A stretch of DNA of 25,977 nt, from the NCBI GenBank assembly GCA_017633615.1, contig JAGBPB010000025.1, positions 1 through 25,977 of the forward strand. The letters are read 5' to 3'. Source of the stretch: Bacteroidaceae bacterium (GTDB taxonomy: Bacteria > Bacteroidota > Bacteroidia > Bacteroidales > Bacteroidaceae). Each line of letters opens with the position of its first letter. Position 1 is the first letter of the stretch. A program made the position numbers and the translations under genes. This document shows positions 417 through 16,223 of this stretch, piece after piece. The notes below the pieces were generated by a model that searched no databases, was not told where the DNA came from, and saw only the letters and a program-made list of their open reading frames with translations.

Positions 417-1535
417 ATGAACAAAAGGACTTTTTTCCATATTGCTTTGTTAGTTATTGTAATTGTAGTAGCATCGTGCGGCAAGGGCAAGAGCATGCAG
501 GCCATTCCCGTTGAAGAGGTGGAGGACACATATTTCCTTGATGAGATTGCTGACAGCCGCAGTTATGTGCTGCTTGATGATGGCTCTCTTGATGCAATTG
601 TGGGCGATATTACCCAGGTTATGGTTGATGACGGGCTGATTTTTGTATCGCACATCCCTAATGCTAAAGGCAACGATATTGACCAGATAATATCAGTATA
701 TGACAAGGAGGGACGGTTCCTGAACAAGATAGGACAAAAGGGGCGTGCCCGGAACGAGTTCTTGCGCATTCGGTCATGGTGTATAGATAAGGATAGCAAA
801 GAGGTTCTGATGTATGACCTGGACGCTTACGCCATAAAGAAATACACGTATGACGGGACATTCATCAGCCAGACCTCAATTCCCAAAGAGATTGACTTGA
901 TGAAGCTTTTCCTTACTGACAAAAGGATGTACGTTCAGTCAACGGTCCCCAATGATGTATCGGATGACTTTATGGAGTTAAAGGAGGATGGTTCATATAC
1001 GCCATTACTGCCTATGAGGCAGATGGCAACTGACGGAGGCTGGCGCGTAGGTATTGTCAGCCATTTTAGAGACCAGGACCTGAAAGAGTTCTACCATATG
1101 CGGGCGTTTGACAATACGCTCTACAGAATCTCTGATGGCAAGGCTGACTCATGCGGATATTTTGAGTTTATTGACGTGCCCCCGGCCAACAAACTGGAGA
1201 ACCTTACTTTTGATTATCTGATTACCCTGAAGCATCCAAGCGAATGCTATGAGACTCCCGCCTATTTTGTGGCAAGTGAATTTGAGGCTGCCGATTATGT
1301 GTATCACAAGCCCACAGGCAAATGCACCTGTTACAGGTATGACATAGCCAATCTGCCCTACCGCCGCAAGATAGTAGGCGTGGTTGGCGATGTGATGATA
1401 GCCGGTGTAACCGCAATCAATGCACAGACTGCACTTAAGGAACATCCGGACATTATTCCGGAGCGGGACAAGGTCATGCTGGAAGCTATTGCAGGCAGAG
1501 AGAATGATGCACTGGTGTTCTATCACTTGAAATGA
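417..1535 (+). CDS. 6-bladed beta-propeller lipoprotein
   Basis: 372 residues. The N-terminus is a lipoprotein signal: Lys/Arg, a hydrophobic stretch, then the lipobox VASC followed by G, with the lipidated Cys near residue 21. An NHL-like element follows ('YDKEGRFLNKIGQKGRARNEF', roughly residues 95-115), with further propeller strands such as 'KKYTYDGTFISQTSIP'. This is the pattern of the large Bacteroidales group annotated as 6-bladed beta-propeller (DUF4934/DUF5128-like). The protein is expected on the periplasmic face of the inner membrane or on the outer membrane. It lies 40 bases after a related truncated gene and converges with the next gene, so it ends this transcription unit. No catalytic residues are evident. 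Its substrate or partner cannot be read from the sequence. Confidence 0.8.
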   Translation: MNKRTFFHIALLVIVIVVASCGKGKSMQAIPVEEVEDTYFLDEIADSRSYVLLDDGSLDAIVGDITQVMVDDGLIFVSHIPNAKGNDIDQIISVYDKEGRFLNKIGQKGRARNEFLRIRSWCIDKDSKEVLMYDLDAYAIKKYTYDGTFISQTSIPKEIDLMKLFLTDKRMYVQSTVPNDVSDDFMELKEDGSYTPLLPMRQMATDGGWRVGIVSHFRDQDLKEFYHMRAFDNTLYRISDGKADSCGYFEFIDVPPANKLENLTFDYLITLKHPSECYETPAYFVASEFEAADYVYHKPTGKCTCYRYDIANLPYRRKIVGVVGDVMIAGVTAINAQTALKEHPDIIPERDKVMLEAIAGRENDALVFYHLK

Positions 1536-1550
1536 CGAGGTGTGTGTTTC

Positions 1551-1573
1551 AAAACTATTTTGTAGGTAGTTTT
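1551..1573. terminator. Weak hairpin between convergent genes
   Basis: AAAACTA (1551-1557) and TAGTTTT (1567-1573) are perfect inverted arms around a 9-base loop, in the short space between the + strand propeller gene and the - strand gene, overlapping the stop codon of the latter. AT-rich and without a clean T-run, so only a possible bidirectional terminator. Confidence 0.3.
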
Positions 1574-2229
1574 ATCCAGTTGTTACGGTAGCCGGTTACC
1601 TCATCTATGAGGCGATAACGGATGTAGGCCTGATAGTTATTATTACCTGAATTAGGAACACTGAATTCTACTTCATTATCATGCTTTCTTATTCCCATGC
1701 AGCTGCGCATCTTGCTGGGATCACAGCCCACGCCCGGAGCGGTAAGTTGGATTCTGGCGGATAGGTGCCAGCGTTCAGGATTGACAGTATCAGATAGCGT
1801 TAGCCGGCAGCGGATGGTGGCCACACTATTACTGTAGGTGGCAGACAGCAGCTGTAATGATGATATTGGGAACTCCGGATATGGTTGTGGTACCGGAACG
1901 TGTTCACGGCCGAGCTGGGCAAAGCCGTGATAGGCACTGACAAAGAGGTTGTAGCCGCTGATGTGATTCTTGTCATCATACGGCGGGCGGTGTGAGGGAA
2001 CGCAGCGAGCAAGTTCCCTCCACTCCAGTTGCACTGAGTGCTGCAGCTGCTGCCAGGCAAGTATGGCACGATGATGAACCTGTGCCTGATCAAGACGGGC
2101 CGGAGTATGGTTGAATGACGGTTTGGGCTTGCGTTTCCAGTAGCATTGGCCGTTACGGTGGTAGAAGGTGATATCACCTATGGAGGACCAGCAGTCCTGA
2201 ATGATGGGTGTGGGATGGAATTTTGGCAT
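1555..2229 (-). CDS. Conserved-looking hypothetical protein (DUF6266-like?)
   Basis: 224 residues, no signal peptide or membrane segment. The first half is rich in aromatic and basic residues ('ITFYHRNGQCYWKRKPKPSF', about residues 20-39). It then has a helical part with 'AWQQL...EWRELARCVPSHRPPYDD' and 'HISGYNLFVSAYHGFAQLG'. The tail is beta-rich. The layout (short basic N-terminus, a Trp-rich helical part, then a beta-sandwich-like tail) recalls the DUF6266 family of Bacteroidetes proteins, but I am not certain of the match and assign no function. A -7 box 28 bases upstream and an intrinsic terminator just beyond it (both on this strand) suggest that it is transcribed separately from the LRR genes upstream. 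Confidence 0.6.
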   Translation of the reverse strand: MPKFHPTPIIQDCWSSIGDITFYHRNGQCYWKRKPKPSFNHTPARLDQAQVHHRAILAWQQLQHSVQLEWRELARCVPSHRPPYDDKNHISGYNLFVSAYHGFAQLGREHVPVPQPYPEFPISSLQLLSATYSNSVATIRCRLTLSDTVNPERWHLSARIQLTAPGVGCDPSKMRSCMGIRKHDNEVEFSVPNSGNNNYQAYIRYRLIDEVTGYRNNWIKLPTK

Positions 2230-7691: not shown

Positions 7692-8783
7692 ATGAAAAGA
7701 ACCCTTGCCGTTATAGCTGTAATTGCGTTTGCATCAATATGTCTCCCCGTTGCCGTACAAGGACAAAACATCATAACGGGAACAGTTATTGACAGCCTGA
7801 CGCAAGAGCCGCTATCATTGGCCACAGTCTATATCAACGGCACTACCAAAGGAACAGTTACCGATGTCCATGGACAATTTGAACTTAGAGACGTTTCATT
7901 CCCTGCCACCGTTGTATTCAGTTTTGTGGGTTATAAGCCTAAAGCATACGATTTTACCCGTAATCCAGGCCATTTATCGGTAAAGCTCAAGCCAAACATT
8001 GAATTGCCCGAGGTCGTGATAACAGACAAGAAAGTGAAAAGGAAAGACCTGACATATTTCAAAAGCATGTTTCTGGGCGATGACAGATGGGGACGACATG
8101 CAAATATCAGGAATGAGAATGTTATCATGATTGAAAACAACAATTATAACGGAGTGTCTGTTTTCAAGGCTTGGGCCAGTGAACCCTTAATCATAGAGTT
8201 GCCTTTATTGGGATATGTTTTATATGTAGATCTGGTACATTTCACAGTCGAACACGTTGGCGGTAATACTCTGTGTGATATGCTTGGCTACTTTTACTAC
8301 AAACCCTACTCCATAGGAACAAATTCAAAACTTCTTAGTTTTAAGAAGAACCGCCGTCAGGCTTATTACAATTCAAGCCAGCATTTTCTAAGGTCTGTAT
8401 ATGAAAACCGTCTGGAAGAGAACGGCTACATATTGGCAATGGCAGATAAAGGAATACGCCTGGACATGATAAAATATAAGCCTATAAACATTGAAAGGTA
8501 TTCGGACGTAATAGAAGACAGTATTATGCAGATATTTGGTCTGAAAGACAAGAGACTGAAAATACTGTACTATCATAAGTATGACGGCACTCCCTTGAAT
8601 CTGAAAGATAACAAGACAACCCTATATCCTTTTTCAGAGTCCGGGATTGCTTTCATGAAAGATACCTGCATTTTCTTTCAGGATGGCATTGTCATTGACA
8701 ATAACATACGATTTATGGGTGAAATCTCTAAAAAAAGAGTCGGCGCATGTCTGCCCGATGATTACAGCATAGACAATGACTGA
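7692..8783 (+). CDS. Secreted carboxypeptidase-regulatory-like domain protein
   Basis: 363 residues from the ATG at 7692. An in-frame TTG at 7668 lies inside the -7 box and is rejected as a start. The signal peptide ends at about 'AVQGQ' (residues 1-25). A CarboxypepD_reg-like beta-sandwich follows at about 26-105 ('ITGTVIDSLTQEPLSLATVY', then 'GTVTDVHGQFEL', 'VVFSFVGYKP'). This is the domain that precedes the plug in many TonB receptors, but here no plug or barrel follows. The rest (about 110-363) begins 'VVITDKKVKRKDLTYFKSMFLGDD' and contains 'WASEPLIIELPLLGY', a pattern seen in a family of Bacteroidetes periplasmic proteins of unknown role. It is divergent from the BlaI/M56 operon and shares its intergenic region, so it may be in the same regulon. 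Confidence 0.8.
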   Translation: MKRTLAVIAVIAFASICLPVAVQGQNIITGTVIDSLTQEPLSLATVYINGTTKGTVTDVHGQFELRDVSFPATVVFSFVGYKPKAYDFTRNPGHLSVKLKPNIELPEVVITDKKVKRKDLTYFKSMFLGDDRWGRHANIRNENVIMIENNNYNGVSVFKAWASEPLIIELPLLGYVLYVDLVHFTVEHVGGNTLCDMLGYFYYKPYSIGTNSKLLSFKKNRRQAYYNSSQHFLRSVYENRLEENGYILAMADKGIRLDMIKYKPINIERYSDVIEDSIMQIFGLKDKRLKILYYHKYDGTPLNLKDNKTTLYPFSESGIAFMKDTCIFFQDGIVIDNNIRFMGEISKKRVGACLPDDYSIDND

Positions 8784-8790
8784 ATAACTC

Positions 8791-8816
8791 AAAGGAGGCG
8801 TCTCCTTTTCCTGTTT
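8791..8816 (+). terminator. Terminator after the CarboxypepD-reg gene
   Basis: AAAGGAG (8791-8797) and CTCCTTT (8802-8808) form a perfect 7-bp stem with a 4-base loop, 7 bases after the stop codon, followed by a T-rich stretch broken by CC. Confidence 0.6.
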
Positions 8817-8885
8817 TCCGCATTTTTTCACTCCTATAACCAAAAATGGCCTTACAGCGTTGTAGCACAAAACGATACTTCTGTG

Positions 8886-9440
8886 TCACTCAATTTTAGG
8901 GCGCAGAACTTTGTACATTCTCAGTGTGTCCTTATAACCAAGTGGCGTTTCTGCAGGAGTGAAATTGCATTTGAGATAAAACCCTACTGCAGAGTAATCA
9001 GTGGTTTTGTATGCTTCAACTGTCAAAAATTCACATTCAGGATTATCTCTCTGAACTTTCTTTTCTACTTGACTGATAATGTATTCACCTATGCCTTGCC
9101 CTCGCCATTTCTGGTCAACTGCAAGATATGTGATTTCAATTGCCGGAAACTCCTTTTCTGCGAAGAATTGTTGAATCTTTAGTGCGGCATCAGGCTTTGG
9201 AATAATTCCGGATTTCATCTCATCTTTATCGTCATCATCCAGAGTTAATGTGTCTGAACCAAGACAAAGCATCGCTACTATCTCACTACCGGCCTTTATC
9301 ACGTATGCAATACAGTCAGTTTGGTTTAGGTATTCCTGAAGTTTCTCATGGATGAAGACATCCATAGAAAGGACGCCACAATAGAAACCTGAAAGAACTG
9401 ATGCTTCATCAATTCTTTCAAATGAAAGATCTAAAATCAT
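8886..9440 (-). CDS. GNAT-family N-acetyltransferase (possible toxin of a TA-like pair)
   Basis: 184 residues. The GNAT fold is clear: 'AIEITYLAVDQKWRGQGIGEYII' (about residues 99-121) holds the beta-4 strand and the acetyl-CoA pyrophosphate loop Q-x-W-R-G-Q-G-I-G. A later 'TVEAYKTTDYSAVGFYLKCNF' is the usual Y-x-x-x-GF-Y motif before the C-terminal strand. The N-terminus begins 'MILDLSFERIDEASVLSGFYCG', and 'DVFIHEKLQEYLNQ' follows. That resembles the 'L-x-x-FL...A' substrate region of TacT-like and related GNATs in TA loci. Start and upstream stop are 3 bases apart, so translation is coupled to the 54-residue ORF before it. The acceptor substrate is not predictable. It could equally be a metabolic or protein-modifying acetyltransferase. 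Confidence 0.8.
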   Translation of the reverse strand: MILDLSFERIDEASVLSGFYCGVLSMDVFIHEKLQEYLNQTDCIAYVIKAGSEIVAMLCLGSDTLTLDDDDKDEMKSGIIPKPDAALKIQQFFAEKEFPAIEITYLAVDQKWRGQGIGEYIISQVEKKVQRDNPECEFLTVEAYKTTDYSAVGFYLKCNFTPAETPLGYKDTLRMYKVLRPKIE

Positions 9441-9443
9441 TGA

Positions 9444-9608
9444 TTATTTCCAGATGGCATTATATCTTTTCGATGCCTTCTCAGAGCGGAGAACGCCTTC
9501 TTTTTCTTCCTGATTTAGATTTCCTGTACGGGCACGATGCAATGCTTCGCGAAGCTCTTTCGCGAACTGCCCCTTTAATGGTTTGTGTGTAGATTCAATT
9601 CCTAACAT
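9444..9608 (-). CDS. Small protein coupled to the GNAT gene (antitoxin candidate)
   Basis: 54 residues if started at the ATG at 9608. A longer frame from a TTG at 9686 would read through the promoter and the neighbouring terminator, so it is rejected. The sequence is short, charged and helical: 'KGQFAKELREALHRARTGNL' followed by 'NQEEKEGVLRSEKASKRYNAIWK'. It has no signal peptide. It ends 3 bases before the GNAT ATG, so the GNAT ribosome-binding region lies inside it. A good promoter stands upstream. Small helical protein plus GNAT in an operon is the layout of type II toxin-antitoxin modules, but I do not recognise a known antitoxin DNA-binding fold (no obvious ribbon-helix-helix). The assignment is an inference from layout. 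Confidence 0.55.
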   Translation of the reverse strand: MLGIESTHKPLKGQFAKELREALHRARTGNLNQEEKEGVLRSEKASKRYNAIWK

Positions 9609-9632
9609 GATATTATGTATTAATTTCTGAAT

Positions 9633-9665
9633 GCAAAGGTTATAAATAAATCTCTTATATCCAAA
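9633..9665 (-). promoter_or_regulatory. Promoter of the small-ORF/GNAT pair
   Basis: On the minus strand TTTG (9665-9662), a 19-base spacer, then TAACCTTTGC (9642-9633), a slightly extended TAnnTTTG. The predicted start lies about 20 bases before the ATG at 9608. This position also decides the ATG over the upstream TTG. Confidence 0.6.
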
Positions 9666-9683
9666 TCTATAAGTCCGGCGATG

Positions 9684-9722
9684 CAAAAAAAACAGGCGGA
9701 CCGAGAAATCTCAGCCCGCCTG
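9684..9722 (-). terminator. Intrinsic terminator after the S-component gene
   Basis: On the minus strand a 7-bp stem (CAGGCGG / CCGCCTG, 9716-9722 with 9693-9699) is topped by a partly paired GAG...CTC extension and followed by eight or nine T's. It lies 23 bases after the stop codon of the gene ending at 9746. Confidence 0.8.
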
Positions 9723-9745
9723 ATTATAAATAAACACTGTGAATA

Positions 9746-10282
9746 CTATTTTGTTGCTAATCTGATTGCCAGGATGGCCAGAGGGATTGTGATAAGGTAG
9801 ACAAGAATCAGGACAGGGATGTTGTCGATGACGGGAATCATCAACTGATCGTAGCCGGGACGCATCTCCTCAACGGCAGCGGCAAGGGAGCCCTCTGTGT
9901 CGGTCCACCAGTGAGCAGTGTAGGTAAAGAATGAGAATGCCATCGGCACGAATCCCCAACGCAGGCTCTTTACAGGGTTTGACTTAAACTTGATCCTTAA
10001 GAACTCAGAAAGGGCTGCCAGGAAAATCATACCTATTACAACATTGGCATCGGCCTCACCTACCAGAAGAAACAGCACGATGACGAATCCGTTCATGATA
10101 CTTGCGGCGCCGAATCCCGGAACCTGCTTGACCATAGCCTTGTAAATGAAGGCCGTGATAAACGGCAGCAGAGCACCTACGTAGGCGTAGCATGCAGGAT
10201 GAATGATACCGGTAAATGCACCCAGAAAGAATGTGGCAAGATAAGCGATTGCCAACAGGATAACTTTAAAAATTGTTTTCAT
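9746..10282 (-). CDS. ECF-transporter S-component-like membrane protein (Trep_Strep/MptD type)
   Basis: 178 residues, almost entirely hydrophobic, with about five or six membrane helices. 'YVGALLPFITAFIYKAMVKQ' followed by 'VPGFGAASIMNGF', and then 'GMIFLAALSEFLRIKFKSNPVKSLRWGF', follow the pattern of the Trep_Strep/MptD family of putative substrate-binding S components. The length is usual for that family. S components give substrate specificity and work with shared ATPase and T subunits encoded elsewhere; none are in the window. The gene stands alone, with its own promoter, a 170-base leader carrying an attenuator-like structure, and a terminator. The aromatic codons of the leader ORF suggest, by inference only, that the substrate is an aromatic amino acid or a related compound. 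Confidence 0.65.
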   Translation of the reverse strand: MKTIFKVILLAIAYLATFFLGAFTGIIHPACYAYVGALLPFITAFIYKAMVKQVPGFGAASIMNGFVIVLFLLVGEADANVVIGMIFLAALSEFLRIKFKSNPVKSLRWGFVPMAFSFFTYTAHWWTDTEGSLAAAVEEMRPGYDQLMIPVIDNIPVLILVYLITIPLAILAIRLATK

Positions 10283-10310
10283 AACTTATTGATTTATTGT
10301 GAACTCAGAC

Positions 10311-10343
10311 AAAAAAAAGGAGAGCTTGCTACGCAGGCTCTCC
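10311..10343 (-). terminator. Terminator hairpin in the leader of the S-component gene (attenuator)
   Basis: GGAGAGCTTGC (10319-10329) and GCAGGCTCTCC (10333-10343) form an 11-bp stem with one G-T pair and a 3-base loop. On the minus strand it is followed directly by eight T's (10318-10311), then 28 bases to the start codon. It lies downstream of this gene's own -7 box, so it can only act as a premature, conditional terminator. On the + strand it is followed by CTTTTATT, a weaker T-run. Confidence 0.75.
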
Positions 10344-10367
10344 CTTTTATTCAATAATCTATCCCCA

Positions 10368-10445
10368 CTAGGAGCGGAATCCGCTCCTGTCTCTCTCCTC
10401 AAAAAACCAAAACATAATCCAATAATCATCAGGACCATAATTCAT
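10368..10445 (-). CDS. Aromatic-rich leader peptide, 25 codons
   Basis: ATG at 10445 to TAG at 10368. The peptide carries Tyr3, Tyr8, Trp9, Phe12, Trp13, Phe14, Phe15 and Phe23; the core reads YWIMFWFF (residues 8-15). Two Trp and three Phe in eight codons is far above chance and is the hallmark of attenuation leader peptides such as TrpL and PheL. It starts about 10 bases after the predicted transcription start. Its last seven codons and stop form a perfect 8-bp hairpin, and an intrinsic terminator follows 25 bases after the stop. Codons 16-18 (GAGGAGAG) could also pair with the 3' arm of the terminator. The reading frame is certain; translation and regulation are inferred. Confidence 0.7.
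   Translation of the reverse strand: MNYGPDDYWIMFWFFEERDRSGFRS
10370..10388 (-). promoter_or_regulatory. Hairpin at the end of the leader ORF
   Basis: AGGAGCGG and CCGCTCCT form a perfect 8-bp stem with a 3-base loop, spanning the last codons of the leader ORF; its outer base belongs to the stop codon. A ribosome finishing the leader would melt it, and one stalled on the aromatic codons would not. That is the arrangement expected of an attenuation switch. Confidence 0.6.
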
Positions 10446-10459
10446 CAATGTTTACGGCT

Positions 10460-10468
10460 GCAAAGGTA
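10460..10468 (-). promoter_or_regulatory. -7 box of the S-component gene
   Basis: The minus strand reads TACCTTTGC, a perfect TAnnTTTG box, 16 bases before the leader ATG. No -33 TTG at normal spacing; instead an imperfect inverted repeat (ACAGC-g-CCC / GGGCTGT, 10468-10487) lies just upstream and may be an operator. Confidence 0.55.
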
Positions 10469-10555
10469 CAGCGCCCAATCGGGCTGTGTAATACCCAAAA
10501 CATGTGATTCTGCACCACAGAGGTGTCCACAGGCCATTATCACTAAAAATGAGTA

Positions 10556-10586
10556 TTGCCGCAACACCGATAAGAGAGGACCTTTG
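10556..10586 (+). promoter_or_regulatory. Promoter of the porin-imelysin-cytochrome operon
   Basis: TTG (10556-10558), a 20-base spacer, then GACCTTTG followed by C (10579-10587), one mismatch to TAnnTTTG. It lies about 20 bases before the ATG at 10606 and supports that start over the longer upstream frame. Confidence 0.55.
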
Positions 10587-10605
10587 CAGCGTAAATGAAA
10601 CGACA

Positions 10606-11868
10606 ATGGAAAGAGTCCTGAAAACACTGGTTACATGCGTAACCTTATTAATATCGGCACAAGCCTCGGCACAGGAAAATGCCTCTGATACGCGTCTGAG
10701 CGTGGGAGGCTACGGTGAGGTTGTAATGAGCCGGAACTTCTACAGCGATAATGTGTATCGCTACTCAAATCCCACCAAGTATAAGGATGACCCCAGCCAT
10801 GGAAGATTCGATATCCCGCACGCAGTACTATATATTGGGTATGACTTTGGTAAAGGCTGGTCCATGCAGACCGAGATTGAGTTTGAGCATACCGGCACCG
10901 GAAGCGCTGTGGAAAAGGAGTTCACTGAGGCCGGTGAATGGGAAACCGAGATAGAGAAAGGCGGTGAGGTAGCACTTGAGCAGTTCTGGCTACAGAAAAC
11001 CATAAAACCCTGGCTCAACATACGCGTAGGACATATGGTCGTTCCCGTAGGCGCCCTCAACAATGCACACGAGCCCCTGAACTTCTTTACTGTATATCGT
11101 CCCGAGGGTGAGTTCACCATCCTACCCTCCACATGGCACGATACGGGCATCGGCCTTTGGGGAGACTTTGAAAAGTGGAGTTATGAGTTCCAGGTGATTG
11201 CCGGACTTGACGCTTTCATGTTCAACCGCGACAACTTCATAAAATACGGTGCTGCTTCACCCTATGAGTTCAAGGTGGCCAACAACTACGGTTTTGCAGC
11301 CAGGATTGATAACCGCTCTATCAAGAGCCTGCGTCTTAGCCTGAGCGGCTACTACGGTAACAGCATGCACAACTCATTTCCCAATGATATGAAGGACACC
11401 CGCTACAAGGATATAAAGGGCCGTACCGCCATAGGATGTTTTGACTTCAGCTATAAAGGCCGCAACCTGATAGTACGTGGAAACGCCGACTACGGATATG
11501 TATCGGACGCCGTGACTATCAGCACCGTAAAACGTAACATGACGTCAAACAACGCCCCCTACAAGAAGACTCCGGTTGGAAAAGCCGCCGTCACATACGG
11601 AGGCGAGGCCGGTTACAACATACTGGGAAAGTCTGATGAAAAGCTCTTTGTCTTTGGCCGATACGAGTTCTATGACCCGTACACCCCCGCAGCTGATCAG
11701 CAGGACTACACATTTACTGATGTACACCGCATAGCAGCCGGCATCAACTGGCTCCCCATACCGGAGATTGCCGTCAAGGCTGAATTCTCGGAGCGTTTCC
11801 GCTCAGAGCGCTACAACAACGAGCCGTCAGTATCAATAGGTATAGCATACATGGGATTTTTCAAATAA
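10606..11868 (+). CDS. Outer-membrane porin-like beta-barrel protein
   Basis: 420 residues from the ATG at 10606, which gives a proper signal peptide ('MERVLKTLVTCVTLLISAQ', then ASAQ). The frame is open upstream to 10504, but that part overlaps the promoter. After the signal come alternating amphipathic strands of a barrel: 'LSVGGYGEVVMSR', 'YIGYDFGKGWSMQTEIEFEH', 'EQFWLQKTIKPWLNIRVGHMVVPVG', ending 'SIGIAYMGFFK' with a terminal aromatic. The pattern fits phosphate-selective-porin-like (porin O/P) proteins of Bacteroidetes. It is the first gene of a run with imelysin, a di-heme oxidoreductase and CcsA, with 16 bases to the next gene. It would be the outer-membrane entry point of that system; the solute is not readable from the sequence. 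Confidence 0.75.
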   Translation: MERVLKTLVTCVTLLISAQASAQENASDTRLSVGGYGEVVMSRNFYSDNVYRYSNPTKYKDDPSHGRFDIPHAVLYIGYDFGKGWSMQTEIEFEHTGTGSAVEKEFTEAGEWETEIEKGGEVALEQFWLQKTIKPWLNIRVGHMVVPVGALNNAHEPLNFFTVYRPEGEFTILPSTWHDTGIGLWGDFEKWSYEFQVIAGLDAFMFNRDNFIKYGAASPYEFKVANNYGFAARIDNRSIKSLRLSLSGYYGNSMHNSFPNDMKDTRYKDIKGRTAIGCFDFSYKGRNLIVRGNADYGYVSDAVTISTVKRNMTSNNAPYKKTPVGKAAVTYGGEAGYNILGKSDEKLFVFGRYEFYDPYTPAADQQDYTFTDVHRIAAGINWLPIPEIAVKAEFSERFRSERYNNEPSVSIGIAYMGFFK

Positions 11869-11884
11869 TAAAACCATAATTGAA

Positions 11885-13099
11885 ATGAAAAAGAAACTGA
11901 TTTTAGGTATGGCGGCAGCCGCACTTGTACTGACCGCCTGTGACAAGTCAAAAGAGGATGAAGGACTCAGCAAGTTCCAGTCAGATGCAAAGGCAGTTGT
12001 TGAGCAGTATGTACCCAACGTAATCTACTCAACCTATAATGACCTGGCCAAGGAGTCAAGTGAGCTTTATGACCTGCTGGCTGCAGCCAGTGAGAGAGGC
12101 GTAAATGCTCTGCAGCAGTCTGATATTGATGCCATCTGCGCCAAGTTCCTGCAGGCACGTCAGTCATGGGAGGAATCTGAGGCTTTCCTCTTTGGTGCAG
12201 CCACAGATTTTGGTATCGACCCGCATATTGACACATGGCCCCTGGATGTTGAGGCTCTTGCTACCGCTCTGAGCAATGCCGAGCAGGTTGCAGCCCTTGA
12301 GGGTGAAGACGGCATTGCGTATGCATCGGCCAAACTGGGTGCCGAGCTCTTAGGATTCCACGGAATTGAGTTCATACTGTTCCGCGATGGAGCAAACCGC
12401 ACAGTAAGCGCTCTGCAGGCTAATGAGGACAATGAGGCTTTTGAGGGCAAGACCGTTACCGGAGCTCAGGAACTCATCTACGCTACCGCTGTAGCAGGTG
12501 ACCTCCGTGACAACTGCTACCGTCTTTGCGTAGCATGGAACCCCGATGCACCTGAGGCTTATAAGGAGCGTTGTGAGGAACTTGAGGTTGCCGTTTCAAT
12601 GACCGGATCCGATAAGTGCTACGGCGAGAACATGCTTGGTGCAGCACAGCTGGGCAGCACATACGCCACATGGCAGGAGACACTTGCATCTATCCTTGTT
12701 GCAGGTTGCTCAAACATCTGCAATGAGGTTGCCGCAGTCAAGATGGGTAACGCCCACAGCGGTGAGGATGTAAACTACATCGAGTCACCCTACAGCAAGA
12801 AATCATTCCAGGATTTCATTGACAACATACTGAGCATCCAGTACACACTGTACGGCAAGGCTGGTGCGACAGATCCTGTAAAGAATTCACTCATCAACCT
12901 GCTCAAGGACAACAAGTATGAAGGTGTGAACAGTCTGACAAACAAGTTGTCAGAGTCAATCGCAGCCCTCAAGGTTTGCCAGGGCAAGGGTGCATTCGTT
13001 GACATATATCAGGACGCCTCTGTTCAGGCTGCCATAGATGTAATAAGTGAACTTGATGATGAACTAAACAACGCTGCCAAATGGATAACCAGGCAGTAA
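11885..13099 (+). CDS. Imelysin-family (M75) lipoprotein
   Basis: 404 residues. The lipoprotein signal has lipobox LTAC (Cys19). The imelysin fold is indicated by the conserved GxHxxE motif (GFHGIE, residues 157-162), by 'KFLQARQSWEESEAFLFG', where Trp95 and Glu97-98 belong to the conserved helix, and by a C-terminal helical repeat with related spacing. Imelysin-like proteins (IrpA, ICMP, the EfeO M75 domain) act in the periplasm, probably binding iron or heme-related ligands rather than cutting peptides. It lies between a porin and a di-heme oxidoreductase, with 16 and 4 bases of spacing, so all are one operon. Pairing of an imelysin with a thiol/di-heme oxidoreductase is a known association in iron-regulated loci. 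Substrate unproven. Confidence 0.88.
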   Translation: MKKKLILGMAAAALVLTACDKSKEDEGLSKFQSDAKAVVEQYVPNVIYSTYNDLAKESSELYDLLAAASERGVNALQQSDIDAICAKFLQARQSWEESEAFLFGAATDFGIDPHIDTWPLDVEALATALSNAEQVAALEGEDGIAYASAKLGAELLGFHGIEFILFRDGANRTVSALQANEDNEAFEGKTVTGAQELIYATAVAGDLRDNCYRLCVAWNPDAPEAYKERCEELEVAVSMTGSDKCYGENMLGAAQLGSTYATWQETLASILVAGCSNICNEVAAVKMGNAHSGEDVNYIESPYSKKSFQDFIDNILSIQYTLYGKAGATDPVKNSLINLLKDNKYEGVNSLTNKLSESIAALKVCQGKGAFVDIYQDASVQAAIDVISELDDELNNAAKWITRQ

Positions 13100-13103
13100 T
13101 GAT

Positions 13104-14816
13104 ATGAAACAAAAAGCCATAATTTGTACAGCCCTTATTGGGCTCACTGTTGCCGTCGTTTCCTGCGACGGCAATAGCAGTTTAAATGTGAACAGTTCAA
13201 GGGAGCCCGATGCCAAGTACGTTGGACAGGCCGTAGGCAACTTCAGTGCAAGCGAGTGGTTCCCGGGTGGAGAACTTGGTACAACCGACAATGTAACTGC
13301 CGGATGCTATGAGGATGAGACACCATCCGTTACACTTCAGGGGCTTGAAACAGCCTTCAACCTAGGTGAAGCTGCATTTGAGCGCAAGTACACAACCGCC
13401 ACAGCCCCCTTCAAGGGTCTGGGCCCCGCTTACCTGCGCTCATCATGTCTGGACTGCCATCCCGGCTACGGACACGGCAAGCGTCAGTCTGAATACCGAT
13501 CGGAGTTCGGCAACGGCTATCTGCTGGTCATCTACCATCCCGTTGACGGCCAGAACAGCGATGACGGTCCGTATGTAAGCGAGGTTACAGGTATGCCCCA
13601 GACAAAGGCTACCTACCCCTTCCTGCCCCCTATCGACGAGGAGCAGATTGTCATCCAGTGGCTACCCGTAACCAGCATGGAGAGCGGTCTGCCCATGACA
13701 TTCCCTGACGGTGAGGAATACAGCCTCATATACCCCGAGGTAACCATCCCCGCAAGCGCATTCCACACCAGCCCCACTCCTTATGAGACCGGAGCGGTTG
13801 CATTCCGTCTGGAATCGACCATCGGCATTATCGGCTCAGGACTGCTTGATGCCATATCACAGGACAGCATCCGCGAGCAGTACCGCAGCGAGGCAGCCCA
13901 CGCTGACCTGAACCCCGCATTCTGGGATAAGGAGGCCAATGATTTTGCACCCACGGCATGGTACACGCTGGCAGCCGGACGTTTTGCTGACGGAACCGAT
14001 GCACCCGCAGGAACCAAGATGGTCAAGAAATTCACATACGCCATGACCCGCGCCTCACTGCAGGACGGTGCCGGCGCCAACGCCATCTGGAATATCACAA
14101 ACGTAAGCCGCAGCGACCGCCACTACCTGTACACCACCAAGGCATGGGCCAAGGCAATGTCTGAGAACGCACAGGTGATAGCCGCCATCAAGGCCGATCC
14201 CACATCACCCTACTATGCCGACGGCACCGATGAGGGCATACGTGAGGCGGTCCTGAACCTTCTCGATCCCTCAACCAACCAGTTTGACAACCAGTGGCAC
14301 GACTTTGAACCGGAGATGAGTGACCAGCAGTACTACAACTTTATGGTATGGCACCGCGGTCTATCCATCCCTCGTGCCCGTAACCTGAACCGTGAGGAGG
14401 TGCAGAAGGGTAAGGAGGTATTCAACCGCATCGGTTGCGCCACCTGCCACCGTCCCTCTTGGAATACCGGAAAGGACAATTACTGGAAACCTGCCGTCTA
14501 TGCCGACAAGGAGTTGCCCCGTTATGAGGAGCAGACCATCTGGCCTTATACTGATATGATACAGCACCGTCTCTACATGAAGAACGGCATTCACGGCAGC
14601 TGGTGCCGCACCACTCCGCTTTGGGGCCGCGGGCTCTCACGCACCAACACCGGAGCTGAGGACCGTCTGCATGACAACCGTGCCCGTGACGTTATTGAAG
14701 CCATTATGTGGCATGGTTACAGCAAGGAAAGTGATGCATACTGGTGCACTGAAAAGTTCTACAACCTCAAAAAAGAAGAGCGCGATGCCGTTGTGGAATT
14801 CATCAATTCAATCTAA
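13104..14816 (+). CDS. Di-heme oxidoreductase (DUF1111, putative peroxidase/thiol oxidoreductase), lipoprotein
   Basis: 570 residues. Lipobox VVSC (Cys21) anchors it to a membrane in the periplasm. There are two c-type heme motifs: CLDCH (115-119) and CATCH (445-449). This matches the di-heme oxidoreductase family related to cytochrome c peroxidases (MauG-like); the long insert between the hemes and the C-terminal 'TTPLWGRGLS' and 'HDNRARDVIEAIMWHG' (with a His near a proposed heme ligand) are typical of DUF1111 proteins. Function in known cases is uncertain: peroxidase or electron-transfer enzyme linked to iron handling. It starts 4 bases after the imelysin stop and is followed 9 bases later by the heme-attachment factor gene it would need. 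No truncation is visible. Confidence 0.88.
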   Translation: MKQKAIICTALIGLTVAVVSCDGNSSLNVNSSREPDAKYVGQAVGNFSASEWFPGGELGTTDNVTAGCYEDETPSVTLQGLETAFNLGEAAFERKYTTATAPFKGLGPAYLRSSCLDCHPGYGHGKRQSEYRSEFGNGYLLVIYHPVDGQNSDDGPYVSEVTGMPQTKATYPFLPPIDEEQIVIQWLPVTSMESGLPMTFPDGEEYSLIYPEVTIPASAFHTSPTPYETGAVAFRLESTIGIIGSGLLDAISQDSIREQYRSEAAHADLNPAFWDKEANDFAPTAWYTLAAGRFADGTDAPAGTKMVKKFTYAMTRASLQDGAGANAIWNITNVSRSDRHYLYTTKAWAKAMSENAQVIAAIKADPTSPYYADGTDEGIREAVLNLLDPSTNQFDNQWHDFEPEMSDQQYYNFMVWHRGLSIPRARNLNREEVQKGKEVFNRIGCATCHRPSWNTGKDNYWKPAVYADKELPRYEEQTIWPYTDMIQHRLYMKNGIHGSWCRTTPLWGRGLSRTNTGAEDRLHDNRARDVIEAIMWHGYSKESDAYWCTEKFYNLKKEERDAVVEFINSI

Positions 14817-14825
14817 TTTAGTAGC

Positions 14826-16223
14826 GTGAAAACAAACAGGATACTTAAATACACAGGCATTGGTTCAGCGGCCGCCGTCATCCTTATGATGGCAGCCGCT
14901 ACCATTGTTGAGAAGCTGTACGGTACAGAAACCGCATTCCGGCATTTCTATCACAGCCCGGTATTCATTGCACTCTGGGCCGTCACCGCAATATCAGGGG
15001 TATGGCTCATGATCAAACGCGGCACAATAAAGAAGCCCGCCACATTCTTCCTGCACATAGCATTCGTGCTTATACTGGCCGGCGCATTGATTACCCTGCT
15101 TACAGGCAAGAGCGGCAGCATGTACCTGCGCCGCGGTGAGACATCGGCAAATTGGTCATCGGACCAGGGATTCCGTCAGAAACTTCCTTTCAAACTGACG
15201 CTAAAGGATTTCAGCATTGAGTACTATCCCGGTACCAAGGATCCAAAAGACTACATCAGCAAGGTGGCTGTTACCGACAGCAATACCGGGGCTGCCACTG
15301 AGTACACCATATCCATGAACAACATACTCAAGTACGGAGGTTACCGTTTCTATCAGACCAGCTATGACTCAGACCTTAACGGAAGCGTATTCTCAGTGAG
15401 CCATGACCCCTGGGGCGTATCAGTGACCTACACAGGATACATCCTGCTGTTGCTCTCCATGATAGGGTTCTTCTTCCAGAAAAACTCCGGATTCCGTATG
15501 GCCCTGAAGGCCCGCAGCGAGGGATTCTCCAAGCCGGCAAGAACTGTCCTGCTGGTTCTGAACATACTGTTGTTCGGTTACCTGACCTTTATCATAGGCC
15601 GGAACTGGTACCGCTCCGGACACGGCCCGTTTGTAGGCACATACTCCGTGATGATGCTTATGGCCTGGCTTGTGACAGTGGCTATGGCAATGTTGCGCAA
15701 GCGCCTGCCCATTATCCAGCCGCTTGGCTTTGTACTGGCCGGATTCTCCATACTGGTGGCATCGCTCTCATTCTCTGACCCCGAGGCCAACCTTATGCCG
15801 GTGCTGCGCTCACCGTTCCTGAGCGTGCATGTGCTCTGCATGATGGTATCGTACACACTGTTCGGACTTGTAGCCCTGATAGGTGTGGTCGGGTTGATAA
15901 AACACAATGATGACACACGCTCCATGCTGCGCGACATGAGTCTGAGCATACTCTACCCCGCTGTATTCATGCTGACTACCGGCACATTCATCGGCGCCGT
16001 CTGGGCCAATATTTCATGGGGAAACTACTGGGGCTGGGATCCCAAGGAGACATGGGCGCTCATAACCATGCTGGTATATGCCGCAATGCTCCACAGCAGT
16101 ACCGTGTCCCGTTTTGCAAGGCCGCGTTTCTTCCACGCTTACGCAATCATAGCCTTCCTGACTGTACTTATCACATACTTTGGAGTCAATTTCCTGCTGG
16201 GAGGCATGCACTCCTACGCCTGA
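14826..16223 (+). CDS. ccsA: Cytochrome c maturation protein, ResB-like/CcsA fusion
   Basis: 465 residues. The N-terminal half (about 1-215) has a membrane helix pair, a periplasmic beta-domain ('GSMYLRRGET...LPFKLTLKDFSIEYYPGTKDPKDY...YQTSYD') and another helix: a short ResB-like part. The C-terminal half (about 235-465) is CcsA/CcmC-like: 'FVGTYSVMMLMAW', a His in 'LSVHVLCMMVSY' (external His), the heme-handling WWD motif WGNYWGWDPKET (398-409), and a last His in 'GGMHSYA'. The complex attaches heme to CxxCH motifs in the periplasm (system II), so its client is surely the di-heme protein encoded just upstream. The start is a GTG at 14826, 9 bases after the previous stop; no better ATG is nearby. 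Confidence 0.9.
   Translation: MKTNRILKYTGIGSAAAVILMMAAATIVEKLYGTETAFRHFYHSPVFIALWAVTAISGVWLMIKRGTIKKPATFFLHIAFVLILAGALITLLTGKSGSMYLRRGETSANWSSDQGFRQKLPFKLTLKDFSIEYYPGTKDPKDYISKVAVTDSNTGAATEYTISMNNILKYGGYRFYQTSYDSDLNGSVFSVSHDPWGVSVTYTGYILLLLSMIGFFFQKNSGFRMALKARSEGFSKPARTVLLVLNILLFGYLTFIIGRNWYRSGHGPFVGTYSVMMLMAWLVTVAMAMLRKRLPIIQPLGFVLAGFSILVASLSFSDPEANLMPVLRSPFLSVHVLCMMVSYTLFGLVALIGVVGLIKHNDDTRSMLRDMSLSILYPAVFMLTTGTFIGAVWANISWGNYWGWDPKETWALITMLVYAAMLHSSTVSRFARPRFFHAYAIIAFLTVLITYFGVNFLLGGMHSYA

Follow-up and report, generated by a model that had tools for sequence, protein, structure and literature searches.

Why should a bacterial gene carry a transcription terminator within its own leader, between promoter and start codon? 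This question is raised by a locus on the minus strand of the window (the whole stretch of 25,977 nt that was analysed), where the leader spans position 10468 down to the gene start at 10282 and precedes an S-component-like gene. The first-pass annotation had taken such a terminator to be conditional and charged aromatic tRNAs to be its signal. Comparison with related loci makes the leader a candidate attenuator, but the aromatic signal is contradicted. The following parts are distinguished:

10461..10468, minus strand: promoter -7 box TACCTTTG, perfect, invariant in 8/8 aligned leaders and also found in the loci L143, L144 and L146
10368..10445, minus strand: aromatic ORF of 25 codons, MNYGPDDYWIMFWFFEERDRSGFRS, ATG at 10445 and TAG at 10370–10368, overlapping the conserved frame
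10286..10438, minus strand: leader ORF of 50 codons, MVLMIIGLCFGFLRRETGADSAPSGDRLLNKRESLRSKLSFFLSEFTINQ, in the conserved frame
10393..10399, minus strand: AGGAGAG, candidate antiterminator strand, complementary to CTCTCCT (10324–10318)
10370..10388, minus strand: hairpin 1, 8 bp, AGGAGCGG-ATT-CCGCTCCT, within the conserved ORF
10311..10348, minus strand: intrinsic-terminator-like hairpin and T-run (eight T, 10318–10311), overlapping the 3' part of the conserved ORF
9746..10282, minus strand: Trep_Strep/MptD-type S-component-like membrane protein of 178 aa, PF09605 match

The box TACCTTTG agrees with what we take to be the Bacteroidetes-type -7 consensus. This perfect box (10468–10461), the 8-bp hairpin near the end of the aromatic ORF (10388–10370) and the terminator-like hairpin with its eight T's before the ATG of the S-component-like gene are all present as first described. 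Folding of the leader beats 200 out of 200 dinucleotide shuffles (z -4.26). At the gathering score Rfam gave no match in the window and none in the related locus L001, and a known RNA family was rejected on this ground.

Reading frames and helices of the leader

Relatives of the S-component-like gene were collected by scanning genome contigs with an alignment of 17 homologues, and the best 80 of 168 were taken as loci L001 to L080. The leader is present in seven of these best 80, L001 to L007 (84–97% identity). An nhmmer search with the leaders of the window, L003 and L004 against the 80 loci and the window gave full-length matches only in these seven and in the window. Eight stretches of viral contigs matched a pattern, none of them being a relative.

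The frame running from 10438 to 10286 (MVLMIIGLCFGFLRRETGADSAP...) has an invariant ATG, and its 25-codon core is free of stops in 8/8 leaders (gap-free block). For a column shuffle test six of the eight rows were used, with L006 and L007 omitted as near-copies of L003 and L005: 36 of 2000 shuffles were without any stop, and none of the 2000 reached the mean BLOSUM62 score of this frame while remaining stop-free. L002 differs from the window by 12 nt in length with this frame kept. A SAP motif is kept in clades A and B, and downstream of it the sequence of the ORF is not conserved. In the window, L001 and L002 the ORF continues past the terminator, its stop lying 3 nt upstream of the ATG of the next gene in the window and overlapping the start codon of the next gene, encoding an RND protein, in L001; in clade B the stop is found 3 nt before the terminator hairpin. 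Judged by this conservation, the short ORF between promoter and terminator is conserved as coding, and a leader peptide is predicted from it. Short ORFs reminiscent of leader peptides are described for 5' UTRs of Bacteroides thetaiotaomicron (PMC7366714).

The first-pass annotation had read the other frame, with the core MNYGPDDYWIMFWFF, and proposed that charged aromatic tRNAs set ribosome-mediated attenuation through it. This ORF does exist in the window together with the hairpins and aromatic codons, and it is kept in L001; furthermore, an ATG inside this frame is retained in clade B (MFWFVW...), and a diverged leader type has its equivalent frame open, with W, F and Y codons in it. However, a start codon between box and core is found only in the window and L001 and is absent in six of the eight leaders (L002–L007), L004 has an internal stop, and the conservation of the frame is unremarkable, its score being lower than that of the conserved frame and reached by 236 of 2000 shuffles. 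Its TTT and TGG runs may simply follow from Gly, Phe and Leu codons of the conserved frame. The latter has two Phe, no Trp and no Tyr in its first 23 codons in the window, and the eight leader peptides tabulated hold 0–2 aromatic residues each, with no Trp/Phe/Tyr codon run in any. We judge the aromatic ORF to be an overlapping frame and presumably not the functional one. The comparison of frames largely refutes aromatic attenuation, which we regard as highly improbable and have rejected. This corrects the predicted signal: an aromatic substrate is not to be inferred. The aromatic and the conserved ORF lie in different frames.

With regard to structure, the terminator helix has 96.7% of its cells paired over the seven distinct leaders among the eight, and hairpin 1 has 95.2% in its six outer pairs, one of which shows a two-sided change. 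A predicted intrinsic terminator before the first structural gene is conserved, and a terminator-like hairpin is also found in three further leaders, of the diverged type. The antiterminator suggested at the outset, AGGAGAG:CTCTCCT, is complementary and has 95.9% of cells paired with one two-sided change, but this value was reached by 204 of 500 shuffles, L004 has a mismatch, and the registers shifted by +2 and +3 are paired to 83.7 and 89.8%. In the comparison of orthologous leaders, which had been put forward as a check, the terminator helix is conserved and the antiterminator is not above shuffles. Columns 72, 139 and 161 co-change between clades (L004 excepted at 72), so that both alternative helices are kept; they comprise one base of the terminator 3' arm and both its alternative partners, and the co-change was probably a single event. 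Visual inspection of the diverged type revealed no long antiterminator to match.

The operon behind the leader and its apparent partial loss

In five out of seven relatives (L001, L002, L005, L006 and L007) the leader heads an RND-exporter operon, in the order RND protein (783 aa), LolA_like/DUF1329 protein, DUF1302-like outer-membrane protein and S-component-like gene. The protein families were profile-checked on the L001 copies, which match MMPL, LolA_like/DUF1329 (263 aa) and DUF1302 (407 aa); the best model is HAE3, below its cut-off. In L003, L004 and the window the leader stands directly before the S-component-like gene, without the three preceding operon genes. L030 and L054 share this gene order; upstream of it L030 showed no such leader, and in L054 the upstream region lies beyond the contig. 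As a chance background we took the window and L001–L080, with 801 ORF starts having 260 nt upstream, 435 of these with a gap of at least 120 nt. Box and terminator precede 9 of the 435 starts; eight of the nine are this leader, and the ninth, in L063, has no uORF reaching the hairpin. This background is local only, since the loci are centred on one gene family.

L003 and L004 hold a short piece resembling the end of the outer-membrane gene, and the window has a post-terminator spacer as before the RND gene in L001; therefore, the junctions differ. A whole-genome search of the draft genomes of L003 and L004 gave no RND match at E 1e-30. The DNA identities of gene and leader alike group the window with L001/L002, and L003/L004 with L005–L007 (clade B), and because the two agree, the idea of a recombination between leader and S-component gene of L003/L004 was dropped. 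In the simplest history that these sequences suggest, the first three operon genes were apparently lost by separate deletions in two clades. Such apparent parallel gene loss would show that a switch can stay with the last gene of an operon.

The S-component-like protein scores 68.8 bits against PF09605 (cut-off 28.7), in which it resembles the ECF S-components of the MptD/Trep_Strep type. It differs from them in reaching only 34.1 bits against TIGR02185, below the cut-off of 76.45, and no match to CbiQ/EcfT was found in 7/7 related draft genomes, all metagenome-assembled (the control search was positive in 10 of 14 named genomes). An ECF transporter is therefore not to be assumed, and this identity of the gene is doubtful. 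As an S-component-family protein, possibly solitary, it becomes a candidate partner of the RND exporter.

A comparable set is the AmeABCD type of Castellaniella, in which the HAE3 RND transporter AmeD has DUF1329 periplasmic and DUF1302 outer-membrane partners (PMC6394551). The Bacteroidales operon is alike in joining an HAE3-like RND protein (in L001 the HAE3 match is below cut-off) with these two kinds of partner, but has a fourth gene, of the S-component family; leader regulation does not appear in the available part of the Castellaniella account (PMC6394551).

Some neighbouring genes may be mentioned. Next to the operon on its downstream side, L001 has a gene (8537–9805) for SO_0444-type Cu/Zn efflux that includes a heavy-metal domain, and in L005 a Cu/Zn efflux-like gene, recognised by eye from its C-terminus, lies upstream of the leader. 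In the window a divergent cluster on the plus strand (10504–16223) codes for a barrel-like protein (PF13505 below cut-off), an imelysin, a di-haem oxidoreductase and a ResB/cytochrome-c-assembly protein.

Leader types within and outside the genus

Across 37 genomes of the genus, a covariance model built from the eight leaders gave eight strong matches of at least 107.7 bits; of the other matches listed, the highest had 31.8 bits. The strong matches are the seven known loci and a copy in genome G034 (L104, ~1501–1675, minus strand), which consists of the ORF only, of the clade B leader: it shares 106 identical nt with both L003 and L006, lacks this promoter and terminator, and lies in an unrelated patchwork context near the contig end. 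This copy is perhaps an assembly artefact and for this reason was left out of the alignments. Outside the genus the best covariance matches in a 251-genome sample of the family had 37–40 bits and fell on one tRNA-Arg gene, one tRNA-Lys gene and a stretch resembling a terminator. Weak matches of the R1 model (28–40 bits) were likewise rejected as leaders, those opened being other elements: the ~180-nt element of L105, L106, L109 and L111 described below, tRNA-Arg in L127, tRNA-Lys in L128, and by eye only a terminator-like hairpin in L129, L130 and L132.

At E 1e-30 or better, 9 of the 37 genomes have the RND protein, with a readable upstream region in eight; G033 (L145), whose match covers the protein only from residue 56 on, lacks the upstream region and is unusable for the leader. 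Box, uORF and terminator-like hairpin are present in 8/8 readable regions, five being of the first type and three, in G036, G029 and G030, of a diverged type (for instance, MVITIVGNGLCMIVSALGARTHTNGEGYM) with its stop codon in the hairpin loop. The diverged type follows the same plan before two further RND operons and one broken remnant; the latter, in G030, where the match covers residues 1–132 only, counts against the attenuator reading. By eye, a core I-[IV]-G-..-[LI]-C is seen in several leader types; deviations from it occur in L002 (Tyr for Cys), in L004 (Val for [LI]) and also in L143 and L144. Since the leaders reduce to three sequence types, independent events are few.

In the family sample an RND match at E 1e-100 or better occurs in 21 of 301 genomes. 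Among 17 RND upstream regions from outside the genus that were inspected by eye, five (L149, L150, L154, L160, L161) combine a box, or a site like it, with a hairpin and T-run ahead of the gene, two (L159, L163) have a hairpin behind an upstream gene, and ten have neither; by script, an ATG-started ORF behind a perfect box was found in one of the 17, L149. Judged from these regions, the leader plan appears to be uncommon outside the genus. Between hairpin and RND start a palindrome-like GAAC...GTTC, a possible operator, was seen by eye in L149, L150, L154 and L159. In L158 and L159 the RND gene follows what we take to be the C-terminus of a TetR-type regulator.

A separate element was seen in L105, L106, L109 and L111 (~1501–1680), strongly conserved over ~180 nt, with a box-like site and a T-run, beside a presumably esterase-like gene, assigned by motif. 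Model matches of 177–180 nt are found in 24 of the 37 genomes of the genus, of which these four were opened, and Rfam gave no match in the two loci scanned. This element is possibly a small RNA.

Mode and signal of control

The leader is probably a translation-dependent transcription attenuator, which in relatives heads an HAE3/MMPL RND exporter operon and here stands before the fourth gene of this operon. RNA polymerase would start just downstream of TACCTTTG and produce a leader of ~140 nt. In it an ORF with the conserved hydrophobic N-terminal core MVLMIIGLCFGFLRR would be followed by a small hairpin and then by the intrinsic terminator, placed within the 3' end of the ORF or immediately behind it, and the position of the leader ribosome would decide whether the terminator hairpin forms. 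Parts, order, conserved frame and recurrence are read from the sequence; from these we infer where transcription starts, that the ORF is translated, that termination is conditional and which way control runs. In relatives the regulated unit would be the whole exporter operon (RND, LolA-like/DUF1329, DUF1302-like and S-component-like genes), whereas in the window, with the first three genes missing at this locus, the attenuator would act directly on the fourth. The varying end of the ORF, through the terminator, 3 nt before it (clade B) or in its loop (diverged type), argues against an attenuator, and so do the ORF-only copy in G034, the scarcity of the plan outside the genus, the small number of sequence types and the shuffle result and L004 mismatch of the antiterminator. 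Control might run in two directions: early stalling in the ORF would free the antiterminator, or a ribosome translating as far as the hairpin, or entering it, would block the terminator. The leading candidates for the signal are Ile/Leu/Val supply or the behaviour of a nascent hydrophobic peptide, not aromatic tRNAs. In Bacteroidales, such an arrangement would put an HAE3-like RND export operon under a candidate leader-peptide attenuator; among the titles listed by literature searches on leader peptides and attenuation in Bacteroidetes and Bacteroides, none was on this leader.

The second direction corresponds to the coupling mechanism of the pyrBI attenuator of E. coli. Translation through or up to the hairpin would block the terminator, and the operon would be on when a ribosome closely trails RNA polymerase. 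We consider this possible, though only as a tentative reading. As in pyrBI, the leader ORF of the window, L001 and L002 spans the terminator; over the three leader types the ORF end lies inside the terminator, past it or 3 nt short of it, and the overlap of its stop with the RND start codon in L001 fits as well. On the other hand, the end of the ORF is not fixed, as in clade B and the diverged type it lies before or inside the hairpin, unlike pyrBI, and no pyrimidine link was seen for the present leader. In E. coli a terminator placed directly after a gene was repressed almost fully, which was ascribed to ribosome–RNA polymerase coupling and favours the same here, but a terminator can work efficiently when it lies within the first 100 bp of a coding region (PMC4824070), and the hairpin in question starts ~90 nt into the ORF. 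For reinitiation near leader stops a distance peak of 11–14 bp is reported in Bacteroidetes (PMC4833913), unlike the 3 nt found in the window.

The ORF could also encode a real small membrane protein working with the exporter, the terminator merely setting the dosage of the operon. Its hydrophobic core followed by Arg, the SAP motif conserved in clades A and B and the ORF-only copy in G034 are in line with this. But the C-terminal part, which extends up to the terminator or into it, is not the same in the different clades, the sequence is hardly conserved in the diverged type, and the peptide has no Pfam or NCBIfam match; a database search with the leader peptide gave two hits at E up to 10, P0127 of the clade B type and P0128 (E 0.19). 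We therefore hold a small membrane protein to be unlikely. Similarly doubtful is a more specific form of the attenuator, in which it senses a hydrophobic nascent peptide by the core described above, tunes RND export to membrane or translation stress, was kept through parallel loss of the exporter and now drives a solitary protein of the S-component fold.

If early stalling is the relevant direction, Ile/Leu/Val supply could be the signal: ribosomes slowed in the first ~9 codons would expose AGGAGAG for pairing with CTCTCCT, and termination would not occur. Codons 2–18 of the eight peptides contain 6–9 Ile/Leu/Val codons out of 17, compared with ~4/17 from a rough background of 0.237; the co-changing columns, L004 excepted at column 72, keep both helices; and a branched-chain-rich leader precedes ilvD in a genome of the genus (G001). 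However, any hydrophobic peptide would show an equal enrichment, there is no homogeneous run of a single codon as in his leaders, and the antiterminator suffers from its shuffles, its slides, the L004 mismatch and the lack of a long counterpart seen by eye in the diverged type. Furthermore, we know of no link of an RND exporter to Ile/Leu/Val. Altogether we regard this signal as rather unlikely.

Biosynthetic operons of the same genus served as a yardstick. The his and ilv attenuators and the present leader are alike in plan, with a short ORF directly downstream of the promoter, then hairpins, an intrinsic terminator and the first structural gene. They are unlike in that the present leader has no regulatory codon run, its antiterminator is a candidate, and it precedes an RND export operon in relatives and the last gene of this operon in the window. 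In 5/5 hisG loci read (L175–L179 of six; L180 was left out) we found a leader of 15–16 codons with four or five consecutive His codons; Rfam gave no match in the two loci scanned (L175, L177). For ilvD one of four loci read (L165–L168 of six; L164 and L169 were left out) has a leader, MYNMSVITFIVDVVVAWPAR in L165 (with VITFIVDVVV), followed by a hairpin and located ~260–290 nt upstream of the ilvD match, and the boxes in L166–L168 have no comparable ORF. No leader was seen before trpE in four loci (L170–L173 of five; L174 was left out), where a coding region adjoins upstream. Because of the his and ilvD leader peptides, amino-acid attenuation seems to exist in this lineage. Nor is it new to the phylum: leader-peptide attenuation before amino-acid operons is also reported for Flavobacterium psychrophilum (PMC9723704). 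For the present leader an amino-acid signal is possible but not indicated, since a his-like codon run is lacking. The his and ilvD leaders are ready positive controls from the same genus; a his leader such as MKRYTVSYHHHHTCRS, some 145–180 nt from the hisG match on its upstream side, follows a TAnnTTTG box and is itself followed by a terminator-like hairpin.
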